Origin: a bacterium | Lineage (GTDB): Bacteria > NPL-UPA2 > JAUVJM01 | Length of the DNA stretch: 44,181 bases | Assembly: GCA_030606215.1 (NCBI GenBank) | Contig: JAUWGW010000012.1 | Span: 1-44,181, forward strand | Direction of reading: 5' to 3' | Part shown: one piece after another, positions 9,529 through 13,042 of the stretch | Layout: each line of letters begins with the position of its first letter | Numbering within the stretch: the first letter of the stretch is position 1 | The notes under the pieces: generated by a model | What the model saw: the letters and a program-made list of their open reading frames with translations, nothing else | Database searches by the model: none | What the model was told of the DNA's origin: nothing | Translations under genes and position numbers: made by a program

Positions 9529-9729
9529 TCAGGATACTTTCTTTAAATACCTTCCCGGACCACACCCATAGTCTATCACAGTAAAACCTTCTTTAATACC
9601 AAAGTTACTAACACGTTCTCCATGCGGATAAAAAGCATCTTTAAGTTTAAAGATGCATGACATAAGTTTAAATGCTATATCCGGCATTCTTTCTCTCTCT
9701 TTCCCACAAAATACTTTTTTAAGATTCAT
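9529..9729 (-). pseudogene. truncated SAM-dependent methyltransferase
   Basis: A 66-residue reading frame that begins like a class I methyltransferase (helical N-terminus, then GFTVIDYGCGPGRYLKKVS). Motif I, D-Y-G-C-G-P-G-R-Y, binds the methionine part of S-adenosylmethionine and normally lies near residue 50 of a 180-230-residue enzyme. Here the frame stops directly after motif I, so more than two thirds of the protein is missing; the flavodoxin gene begins 25 bases later. It is most likely a deletion remnant. Confidence 0.7.
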
Positions 9730-9860: not shown

Positions 9861-10862
9861 CTATTCTTGATTCCATATTTTCAGTTTTGAAATTATATGT
9901 TGTTTGATTGCTTTCTCTCTTTCAATTACGAAATTATCAAAATGGTCTTCTTTCATATATTCAAACGCTCTTTCAGTTATCAGGTGCCCTTTTAAAATCG
10001 ACTCAACTTCATCATCATTTCCATATTTGTCCGTCATTTCCGCTATATATTGAGAAGGTTTTTTGTTCTTAATTCTGTTATTTGTTTCGTCCAAGAGTAA
10101 AGTCCTATTTACAACGGAATCCCTGATGTCGTTGAATGTTTCACTTTTTTCTGGGTCCAGTCCCTTCACCTGTTTTGGGAAAATATGATGGTCGTTGATT
10201 TTCTCATTTGAATAATCTCCCGTTCCAACTATTCGCCCCTTATAGAAATCCTTAGCGTCATTGAGTGCTAAAATACAAATGATTGCATTATATCGAGCCG
10301 ATCCCTTCTTTACGCTCTTCAAATCCAATCTATCGACAAATTTTTGATTAGGATTAGCAGGATCTTTTGCAGAGAGTATTGAGACTGGGATTATTCCTGT
10401 TTCTGTCCAATTGGCATTGTCTTCTCTTATTTGCTCCCAAGATTGATGAGTTGAATAATATTTATAAGTTATTGCCTCTTCATAATCTTCATTTAGGATT
10501 TTATTTAAGCTCAGGAAAAACACATAATATGATTGCCTATTTGGGAATGGTTTTTTAGGATTATAAATCGCATAATATAATGAAGCCAATCTCTGTTGAC
10601 CATCAAGTATCGCTTTATCAGGAGTACTTTTCAGCTCCGCTCCCCAAACAGGGTCCCATTCCTCGTTCTGAGCTTCTTCCGGATTTAGCTCCCATAGAAG
10701 AATAAGTCCAGCATAGTAGTTTTGTAATGTTGATTCAATCAAATCACAGACCATACTGGGTTGCCATTCAAATCCTCTTTGAAAATACGGAATCACATAA
10801 GAACCACTGTGTACATTTTTCAGTAAATCTTCCACCTTATCAGTTCCGGGATTTTCAGCCAT
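9861..10862 (-). CDS. DUF262/HNH (GmrSD-like) protein, probably shortened
   Basis: A 333-residue relative of GmrS/GmrD-type nucleases, which use NTP binding by a DUF262 domain and an HNH nuclease against modified DNA. Seen here: IPYFQRGFEW (24-33), the DGQQR NTP-binding signature (87-91), and the HNH core DHHIFPK (224-230). Full-length members are commonly 550-700 residues with a helical region between the domains; here the nuclease part (from about SARYNAII, residue 188) joins almost directly to the end of DUF262. That suggests an in-frame internal deletion, though short natural forms exist. AAGGAGG supports the start. The CTAG restriction-modification pair lies upstream on the same strand, making a small defence patch. 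Confidence 0.8.
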   Translation of the reverse strand: MAENPGTDKVEDLLKNVHSGSYVIPYFQRGFEWQPSMVCDLIESTLQNYYAGLILLWELNPEEAQNEEWDPVWGAELKSTPDKAILDGQQRLASLYYAIYNPKKPFPNRQSYYVFFLSLNKILNEDYEEAITYKYYSTHQSWEQIREDNANWTETGIIPVSILSAKDPANPNQKFVDRLDLKSVKKGSARYNAIICILALNDAKDFYKGRIVGTGDYSNEKINDHHIFPKQVKGLDPEKSETFNDIRDSVVNRTLLLDETNNRIKNKKPSQYIAEMTDKYGNDDEVESILKGHLITERAFEYMKEDHFDNFVIEREKAIKQHIISKLKIWNQE

Positions 10863-11033: not shown

Positions 11034-11618
11034 TTACAATATTTTTCCATAATCCACTTCAATCCCATCGTCGATCTTTCTATAATGGATGGTTTTGGTG
11101 TCTATATGCTCTGGCAATGATGCCTTCACCTCGTAGGTGTATGGTTTTATAGACACAGGAATCTCTCCTATATAACCATCAATTCCTTTTGATTCTTCAT
11201 CAGGCTCGGATAAACGGTAATTCGTTCCTTTTATCTCAGCACCTTTCTTTAGTACTGCTTCTTGGAACCTTAATCCTATAAAGGTTTTCACAATCACCAA
11301 ATCTCTTACCCACTGCTCCACCATTGTTCTGTCAATTTTGCCTATTGTATTCTTTAAATTTTCCAACATCTGCAGTATCTTTTCTGTTGCATTTCTGACT
11401 GCGTCAGGTTTTTGCTCTAAATACCATCCTTCCCATTCAGATAAAGTTTTCCCAGTAAATTCCTGAATAAGGTCACTCATCTGACCGACCACTTTTGGTC
11501 GTGTCCCTTGCGCATATTGATTTGCTAAATTGAGCAATGGAGCCACATACTTGGGAAAGTCGGGAGTTTCTATGTCCAAATATCTTCGGATCTCTTTAAT
11601 ACTAATTTTTACTTTCAT
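11034..11618 (-). CDS. MjaI-family type II restriction endonuclease
   Basis: A 194-residue protein that strongly resembles MjaI of Methanocaldococcus: FPKYVAPLLNLANQYAQGTRPKVVGQMSDLIQEF near the N-terminus and SEPDEESKGIDGYIGEIPVSIKP near the C-terminus (about residues 136-158). The latter is a PD-(D/E)xK-like site, with the aspartate of G-I-D-G and the S-I-K lysine as likely metal and catalytic residues. MjaI cuts CTAG, so this enzyme probably recognises CTAG (inference from family). The ATG overlaps the stop of the methyltransferase gene by four bases, so nuclease synthesis is coupled to and follows modification. Confidence 0.88.
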   Translation of the reverse strand: MKVKISIKEIRRYLDIETPDFPKYVAPLLNLANQYAQGTRPKVVGQMSDLIQEFTGKTLSEWEGWYLEQKPDAVRNATEKILQMLENLKNTIGKIDRTMVEQWVRDLVIVKTFIGLRFQEAVLKKGAEIKGTNYRLSEPDEESKGIDGYIGEIPVSIKPYTYEVKASLPEHIDTKTIHYRKIDDGIEVDYGKIL

Positions 11619-12922
11619 CTTATAACTCCATGAACTATTTGTTGTTGTAAATTTAGAAACTTTGATTTGTACTTGTACTCGAGGGCTGTCTCCACATCAG
11701 CCAACCCATTTTTTATCAAATGGGCATTTAAAAATGTTTTATTCTGCAAATAAAGATAGCAAAGCAAATTATTTTTCTTATCATATTTTGTTGTATCAAA
11801 TTTCAAAAATACCTTTTGCCCACGAGTTTTTTCTCTTAAGAATTGGGTTGCCTCTCCATCCTTTTCTGGTCTTTCTTTCACGCCCCATAACCTAATTTTC
11901 AATCCGTTATTTAACATCAATATTTCTGGAGAAATTATTTCTTTCACAGAATAATATATCTCTCTTGTAAAATGGTGGTTGTCTATTTTTGAACCAAACC
12001 TCATTTTTTTAGGATCGATTTTTTTGTCAAATTTTATCGGGTCTTTAAAATTATAAGGTAGTTTTTTAGCTTCTTCTTTAAAATCTATTTTTCTTTGCTC
12101 TTGCTCAATTATTTCAAAAGATGCATTTTGGGAAACAGTTTTTTGCTTTATCCCAAGTCTCTCTTTTATAATAGGTAGAAAATCCATATTGATTTCATAT
12201 CCAATAGAGTTTCTATTAAGATTTTTAGCTGCTAAAGATGTAGTTCCACTTCCTAAGAAAGGGTCAAGTATTGTATCGCCGACAAAACTAAACATTTTGA
12301 TAAGCCGCTTGGGTAATTCTTCAGGAAACATTGCCAGATGTTTATCTTGCTTTTCACCAGCAAAATTCCAATGTCCAGTAAAATATTGATTCCATTCCTC
12401 CTGCGTTAATCTCGACTGTGATTTAACTTCGTGACTTACTTTTGGCTGATTCCCATATTTTTTGAAAATCAAGATAAATTCATAATCAAGTTTAAGAATC
12501 CCACTTCTTGGATAAGGGAAAGAACCCATTACGGTAGCACCGCCTGTCGTATGGCAAGTAGTGACTTTCTGCCAGATAATAGCTCCCATATAGTCAAAAC
12601 CTGCGCTTTCACAAAACTTAATTATCTCTGTTCTTATTGGAATAACTTTATATCTTCCATAATATACAGAACGAGCAAACTGGTCTCCTATGTTAATACA
12701 CAAACGGCAGCCTTTATGCAGAATCCTATGACATTCATTCCAAGCTAAATTAAGATTGTTAATATACTCCTCATAAGTATCATTGAAACCTATCTGTTTC
12801 CCGTTTCCATAATCTTTTAGCTGCCAATAAGGGGGAGAAGTAATAATAAGATGAACTGATTCATCTGTAACTTCTCTCATGCTCCTGGAATCACCAATAA
12901 TTATTTTGTGCCGGGTCTTCAT
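11615..12922 (-). CDS. N4-cytosine-type DNA methyltransferase fused to an SNase-like domain
   Basis: The 435-residue partner of the MjaI-type nuclease. Residues 1-250 are a beta-class DNA methyltransferase: the catalytic motif IV is TSPPYW (28-33), whose S-P-P-Y form favours N4-cytosine (some N6-adenine enzymes share it), and DPFLGSGTTSLAAKNLNRNSIGYE (about 216-239) binds S-adenosylmethionine. From about residue 315 there is a second domain absent from simple MjaI-type methylases: IRLWGVKERPEKDGEA...FLRE...KVFLKFD...YDKKNNLLCYLYLQNKTFLNAHLIKNGLADV matches the staphylococcal nuclease (thermonuclease) fold. The equivalent of Arg87 in the YGR motif is replaced (KNN), and Asp40 seems lost, so this domain may bind rather than cut. 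A good AAGGTGAG ribosome site precedes the ATG. It is the first gene of the R-M operon. Confidence 0.88.
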   Translation of the reverse strand: MKTRHKIIIGDSRSMREVTDESVHLIITSPPYWQLKDYGNGKQIGFNDTYEEYINNLNLAWNECHRILHKGCRLCINIGDQFARSVYYGRYKVIPIRTEIIKFCESAGFDYMGAIIWQKVTTCHTTGGATVMGSFPYPRSGILKLDYEFILIFKKYGNQPKVSHEVKSQSRLTQEEWNQYFTGHWNFAGEKQDKHLAMFPEELPKRLIKMFSFVGDTILDPFLGSGTTSLAAKNLNRNSIGYEINMDFLPIIKERLGIKQKTVSQNASFEIIEQEQRKIDFKEEAKKLPYNFKDPIKFDKKIDPKKMRFGSKIDNHHFTREIYYSVKEIISPEILMLNNGLKIRLWGVKERPEKDGEATQFLREKTRGQKVFLKFDTTKYDKKNNLLCYLYLQNKTFLNAHLIKNGLADVETALEYKYKSKFLNLQQQIVHGVIR

Positions 12923-12963: not shown

Positions 12964-13042
12964 TGGTCGGGGTGGGCGGATTCGAACCGCCGACCTCCTG
13001 CTCCCAAAGCAGGCGCGCTAAACCAAGCTGCGCTACACCCCG
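12964..13042 (-). tRNA. tRNA-Pro (anticodon TGG)
   Basis: A 79-nt cloverleaf on the minus strand: acceptor CGGGGTG/CACCCCG, anticodon stem CCTGC/GCAGG with loop TTTGGGA (anticodon TGG, reads CCA), T-arm GGCGGTTCGAATCCGCC, encoded CCA at 12964-12966. Its 3' end faces the methyltransferase gene, so the accessory patch at 9.5-12.9 kb abuts a tRNA 3' end. Confidence 0.95.

Follow-up and report, generated by a model that had tools for sequence, protein, structure and literature searches.

What does a staphylococcal-nuclease-like (SNase-like) domain do at the end of a DNA methyltransferase when the residues by which such nucleases cut have largely been replaced? The question is raised by a gene in the window, the whole 44,181-nucleotide stretch of DNA analysed here (contig JAUWGW010000012.1 of assembly GCA_030606215.1, GTDB lineage Bacteria; NPL-UPA2; JAUVJM01). 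The best explanation of this gene is that it supplies the modification half of a type II restriction-modification (R-M) operon of the MjaI type.

The Fusion Gene and Its Operon

Table 1. Features of the fusion gene and its neighbours (positions in the window)
Feature	Position	Strand	Basis or remark
Methyltransferase/SNase-like fusion gene	11615-12922	minus	435 aa, free of internal stops
Methyltransferase domain, residues 5-257	12152..12910	minus	PF01555 and TTHA0409 match
Catalytic motif IV TSPPYW, residues 28-33	12824..12841	minus	Sequence
AdoMet-binding motif I DPFLGSGTT, residues 220-228	12239..12265	minus	Sequence; conserved
Variable linker, residues 258-285	12068..12151	minus	High variability, median pairwise dN/dS ~0.49
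Conserved connector, residues 286-315	11978..12067	minus	LPYxFKDPxxFDKKIDPKKxxFGSxID; pLDDT partly low
SNase-fold domain, residues 318-428	11639..11971	minus	PF00565, predicted fold; catalytic residues replaced
MjaI-type restriction endonuclease, 194 aa	11034..11618	minus	PF09568, E 5.3e-68
tRNA-Pro(TGG)	12964..13042	minus	41 bp upstream of methyltransferase start; edge of low-GC cassette

The MjaI-type context proposed in an earlier note on this DNA is borne out by the neighbouring gene, which encodes an endonuclease of the RE_MjaI family (PF09568) and whose ATG overlaps the methyltransferase stop codon by 4 bp (ATGA). The GC content of the R-M cassette is ~0.32-0.38, compared with ~0.42-0.46 in its surroundings. 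Of 47 other loci examined, only L056 and L062 have a tRNA gene directly upstream of the cassette (in each a tRNA-Ser, ~70 bp before the methyltransferase), and recurrent tRNA-linked integration was rejected on this count. Just downstream of the operon, positions 9861-10862 (minus strand) encode a GmrSD/DUF262-type protein of 333 aa, whose N- and C-terminal domains match while the middle is short relative to the PADLOC HEC-05 models of ~600 aa; it is possibly an internally deleted defence gene. At another locus (L017), a 596-aa relative comes after the fused methyltransferase. A 66-aa open reading frame at 9529-9729 (minus strand), ending in DYGCGPGRYLKKVS, resembles a class I methyltransferase reduced to an N-terminal stub and is probably a gene broken at the cassette edge.

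The Methyltransferase Half and Its Target

The assignment of the N-terminal half as an N4-cytosine-type methyltransferase, made in the same note, is supported. Pfam places PF01555 (N6_N4_Mtase) on residues 23-254 (E 1.2e-44), and the catalytic motif precedes the AdoMet-binding motif, the order that defines the beta class. The SPPY form of the catalytic motif is typical of N4-cytosine methyltransferases. Of the 102 fusion rows collected, 99 contain TSPPYW, and the other three comprise two N-truncated sequences and one taken from the wrong open reading frame. The closest solved structure of this domain is TTHA0409 (2zie/2zif), with a sequence match of E 1.7e-53. Since the motifs are intact, methylation is expected, and we infer that the fusion enzyme is an active N4-cytosine methyltransferase. 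Its beta-class domain would methylate the cognate site, probably at N4 of the cytosine in CTAG, and so shield the host's DNA from the endonuclease of the adjoining gene.

CTAG specificity is proposed by analogy, from the MjaI-type partner. The genome itself is poor in this tetranucleotide (observed/expected 0.13 in 283 kb sampled), but a family relative that lacks RE_MjaI (G003) is equally poor (0.06); the scarcity is therefore not diagnostic, and it was dropped as proof of specificity. GATC (0.23) and GGCC (0.46) are depleted too in the same 283 kb, and values in G003 are similar.

An SNase Fold Without Its Active Site

Pfam recognizes PF00565 (SNase) on residues 357-428 with an E value of 9.8e-9 and a score of 36.1 bits, the curated cut-off being 21. 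Several members of the family only reach that cut-off or fall short of it, which in part explains why the domain is overlooked by routine annotation. The fusion protein is the sole SNase-family match in its own genome. Structures were predicted with AlphaFold2 from an alignment of 41 family members. The SNase-like domain reaches a pLDDT of ~90 in the full-length model and 94.2 (pTM 0.84) when modelled in isolation, and Foldseek aligns the isolated domain with SNase crystal structures at TM scores mostly of 0.80-0.85 by query length (rmsd ~2.4-3 Å, E ~1e-7). The full model retrieves TTHA0409 (2zif, the best match) and, separately, S. aureus nuclease structures. Prediction and superposition thus confirm the SNase fold that had been proposed from the sequence, at a TM score of ~0.8; a predicted structure without that fold, which would have overturned the earlier note's reading, did not arise. 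The full-length model does not fix how the two domains are oriented to each other (pTM 0.63, with pLDDT under 50 in part of the connector), and it therefore gives no grounds for a DNA contact in the active complex.

The earlier note had also judged the active site degenerate, with two catalytic positions replaced. An HMM alignment to solved SNases agrees on both, the arginine of the YGR motif (R87) being N385 and D40 being K349, and extends the loss further: D19-G20-D21 has become S331-P332-E333 and the E43 loop is shortened, leaving R35 (R344) as the only catalytic residue kept. The equivalents of D77, D83, and N100 are retained. In a census of 101 fusions set beside six ordinary SNases caught by the same profile, the set D21, R35, D40, and R87 is intact in none of the fusions, while the bona fide thermonucleases keep their catalytic residues. 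Aspartate occurs at the D21 column in one of the 101 and at the D40 column in none, the latter holding K in 86 and R in 7; the R87 column is N in 77 and R in nine. Across the fusions, the DGDT motif with D19 and D21 has given way to SPE and the E43 loop is shortened. The protein thus falls outside the active SNase family as defined by D21, R35, D40, E43, and R87, and judged by its residues the domain is a pseudo-nuclease. In place of the lost site a new signature is conserved, comprising K/R349 (93/101), N385 (77), N399 (all 101), and H401 (92).

These residues bear on the idea that the domain is a nuclease still active through a rearranged site, so that one polypeptide both modifies and cuts. 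The R35 column, which is R in 79 and K in 19 fusions (98 of 101), and the newly conserved polar residues N394, N399, and H401 could be read in its favor. All acidic metal ligands have been replaced, as has R87 in nearly all members; K or R at D40 would place a positive charge at the Ca2+ site, and the E43 loop is shortened. Because the Ca2+-binding acids and R87 are gone, cutting by the SNase mechanism is not expected, and we find an active nuclease scarcely credible. The domain is also basic, with a median net charge of +7 and a pI of 9.5 among the fusions; the six control SNases carry +5, +3, +2, +1, −2, and −2 (median ~+1.5).

Distribution of the Fusion

A sequencing or assembly error joining two genes, which the earlier note had named as an outcome that would overturn its reading, is excluded: more than 100 independent loci, spanning many bacterial and archaeal phyla, are fused, and the same architecture with the same substitutions recurs in about 100 loci, well in excess of chance. 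At least 472 relatives were found on GTDB representative contigs, and the best 80 of these, at 69-86% identity, all reach into or through the SNase-like domain. Their hosts, named as in the records and mostly metagenome-assembled, include Atribacterota, Bipolaricaulota, Nitrospirota, Planctomycetota, Omnitrophota, Chloroflexota, and Bacteroidota, as well as methanogen- and ANME-type archaea. Two loci (L153:412-1785 and L156:1501-2892) carry an insertion of ~40 residues in the methyltransferase domain, and in both the SNase-like domain stops before its last helix. No record in the annotated plasmid and phage collections covers 80% of the protein. Fused copies are present in IMG/VR, one of them lying between tail-sheath and tail-tube genes with no adjoining restriction gene. 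The SNase-like domain was not found as a separate working gene, since the frame of the apparently split L207 is merely shifted and has no start codon of its own, and L119 contains several frameshifts.

Because those relatives were picked by similarity, a second sampling was based on the RE_MjaI gene alone. Of 290 genomes, drawn from 261 genera, 19 encode RE_MjaI. In sixteen of the 19 the partner methyltransferase either includes the SNase-like domain or has it alongside, counting one copy that is cut short (L111) and one frameshifted in several places (L119); two lack it (L110 and L112), and in one (L118) only remnants are left. Within the archaeal phylum of a Methanophagales genome (L030), the domain is found in 20 of 25 visible partner methyltransferases, five archaeal loci being without it, and a bacterial phylum yields 26 of 27. 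Pooled, 62 of 70 visible partners carry the domain, a proportion that is indicative only, because the second and third samples come from phyla already known to have the fusion. This sampling, which was made regardless of SNase, gives no support to the view of the fusion as an exception among MjaI-type systems, and a single exceptional fusion was rejected.

Relation to the Restriction Gene

The frequent company of RE_MjaI raises an explanation in which the domain is a protein-interaction module, for example one that binds the restriction enzyme to delay or restrain its cutting, or one that dimerizes the methyltransferase. Pseudo-enzymes often turn into scaffolds, and such a role would suit the domain's C-terminal position, the overlap of its coding sequence with the restriction gene that follows, and its presence beside most RE_MjaI genes. 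The loci themselves speak against it. In the 78 fused loci of the scans whose downstream sequence was long enough, RE_MjaI is near full length in 59, a fragment in eight, and missing in 11. Conservation of the SNase-like domain relative to the methyltransferase does not differ between the 59 loci with RE_MjaI and the 19 without it or with a fragment (Mann-Whitney p 0.20), and the domain persists where the restriction gene has decayed or is absent, including the phage orphan. It is mainly this equal conservation that leads us to think that the domain works for the methyltransferase; service to the restriction enzyme is unsupported. The absence of decay in loci lacking the restriction gene could reflect its recent loss. 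The partner enzymes are diverse, several being only ~25% identical to that of the window, although all six RE-like partners tested against Pfam match PF09568; the SNase-like domain is mostly 50-70% identical across the family. Diverse partners beside so steady a domain argue against a tight interface with the restriction enzyme, as does the domain's strongly basic character against an interaction module. We leave that module, its dimerizing form included, a modest probability, and consider the methyltransferase, not the restriction enzyme, the probable beneficiary of the SNase-like domain.

Other genes occupy the downstream position in a few loci. In L039 (5272-6378) and L063 (4141-5250) the gene after the fused methyltransferase encodes, instead of RE_MjaI, a protein of ~370 aa that has no Pfam or PADLOC match and is possibly another restriction enzyme. 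In three loci (L047, L069, and L077) a conserved small protein rich in cysteine (MNESKWxCxRC...) is encoded downstream of the fusion gene.

The domain might instead be an autoregulator that binds the operon promoter or mRNA and limits R-M expression. Methyltransferases of the M.SsoII type control their own operon through an additional domain (PMC3978073), and in the window no separate controller gene lies between tRNA-Pro and the methyltransferase. A form of this explanation that acts through promoter methylation was rejected: CTAG is nearly absent upstream, occurring within 200 bp in only two of 78 loci, with a density of 0.13 per kb in these 200-bp upstream regions versus 0.34 in genes. No SNase fold is known to act as a sequence-specific regulator, a further point against autoregulation, which appears quite unlikely.

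Selection and History

Compared pair by pair, the sequences give a median dN/dS that rises from ~0.06 in the methyltransferase through 0.13 in the connector (residues 286-315) and ~0.18 in the SNase-like domain to ~0.49 in the linker. These values are rough because dS is saturated in most pairs, so that only their ranking is safe. On this evidence the SNase-like domain is under purifying selection, and its alignment contains invariant columns.

In a tree of methyltransferase domains, in which 55 inner branches are without resolution, the bootstrap has not converged, and row L144 (wrong open reading frame, branch length 10) is to be disregarded, the fused enzymes cluster together. The unfused L112 is nested among them with support of 94/91, L110 falls outside the fused clade, and a phage enzyme (L003) lies near the base. 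The position of L112 fits one fusion followed by at least one later loss. Its genome (G011) has kept the RE_MjaI gene, and the enzyme has kept the connector, ending where the SNase-like domain would start; being strongly conserved and retained there, the connector may have a function of its own.

That L112 lost the domain without losing the R-M pair would also be expected if the domain were a neutral passenger, functionless and retained by inertia since an ancient fusion. A dN/dS of far less than that of the neighboring linker, the invariant columns, and the wide phylogenetic spread all oppose this, and we judge a passenger very improbable.

A Proposed Function for the SNase-Like Domain

The reading towards which we lean, as a whole, is that the basic OB-fold grips nucleic acid for the methyltransferase domain as a metal-free accessory. 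Replacement of DGD by SPE, of D40 by K/R, and of R87 by N would have left an SNase OB-fold that does not cut. This remnant most likely holds on to DNA, or to a single separated strand, on behalf of the methyltransferase, and the grip would raise affinity or processivity, the role played by the unrelated C-terminal domain of CcrM, which is the best precedent. Basic charge, fold, purifying selection, and persistence without a restriction gene all favor the holding role. Against it, the domain has been dispensable at least once, in L112 within the fused clade with RE_MjaI kept, and is likewise missing from L110 and the five archaeal loci. Nucleic-acid binding or sensing had been suggested before for this domain; binding stands as the most reasonable reading, supported indirectly by charge, fold, and conservation, and sensing gains no specific support.

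A bolder version, which we think rather unlikely, has the domain as a strand-holding or single-strand/RNA-sensing module that captures one DNA strand while the site is opened or flipped by the methyltransferase. It would be a second, independently evolved solution to CcrM-type strand separation and the normal natural form of MjaI-type methyltransferases, overlooked because the enzymes studied in the laboratory either lost the domain or never acquired it.

The family offers a clear, compact example, open to testing, of a nuclease that has become a probable nucleic-acid-binding accessory of a DNA-modifying enzyme, and should the domain improve methylation, it would be a ready module for methyltransferase engineering.

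Comparison with Known Systems

The full-length family has already been catalogued, with the domain unnamed. The PADLOC MTase_II model PDLC03259 (423 positions) matches residues 3-424 of the window protein (E 2.3e-191); its label reads only "Type II methyltransferase", and the entry does not mention the SNase-like part. PADLOC also has a REase_II model, PDLC03519. No description of the fusion was found in the open-access literature.

Among beta-class 4mC enzymes for CTAG, M.MjaI, M.MthZI, M.BfaI, and HVO_0794 have the superfamily, the SPPY motif, and the beta order in common with the window enzyme. Characterized CTAG methyltransferases are 303-364 aa long, compared with 435 aa here, and in the portion of the source consulted (PMC5867850) the SNase-like domain goes unmentioned and appears to be absent; it is probably unmentioned because the laboratory-characterized enzymes appear to lack it. 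A methyltransferase on an M. thermautotrophicus plasmid record (NC_001337) is 35% identical over residues 1-257 only. The match to TTHA0409, a putative methylase of Thermus thermophilus (2zie, 2zif, 2zig) with a chain of 297 aa, stops at residue 257 as well, and that protein is without the SNase-like domain. A few short CTAG methyltransferases stand for MjaI-type systems in the literature, yet most sampled genomes with RE_MjaI encode a longer enzyme with a conserved, apparently dead SNase domain, which makes the fusion the usual form in many uncultured archaea and bacteria and the textbook enzyme the exception.

With the SNase/thermonuclease family (PF00565) the domain shares the fold (TM ~0.8) and the equivalents of R35, D77, D83, and N100; it differs in that D21, D40, E43, and R87 are replaced or lost and in being intracellular and fused to a methyltransferase. 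The extra domain of M.SsoII is N-terminal and regulates transcription (PMC3978073), while that of the window enzyme is C-terminal and SNase-like.

CcrM, also of the beta class, has a short linker and a C-terminal domain of ~90 aa that binds DNA non-specifically, keeping hold of the non-target strand, and whose conservation is lower than that of the catalytic part (PMC6787082). The window enzyme resembles it in the position of the extra domain after the methyltransferase domain and in its basic charge. The folds differ, being SAND/PWWP-like in CcrM and a predicted SNase OB-fold here, and CcrM methylates adenine in GANTC and has no restriction partner. The likeness to CcrM, drawn by analogy, is thus one of putative role and not of membership.
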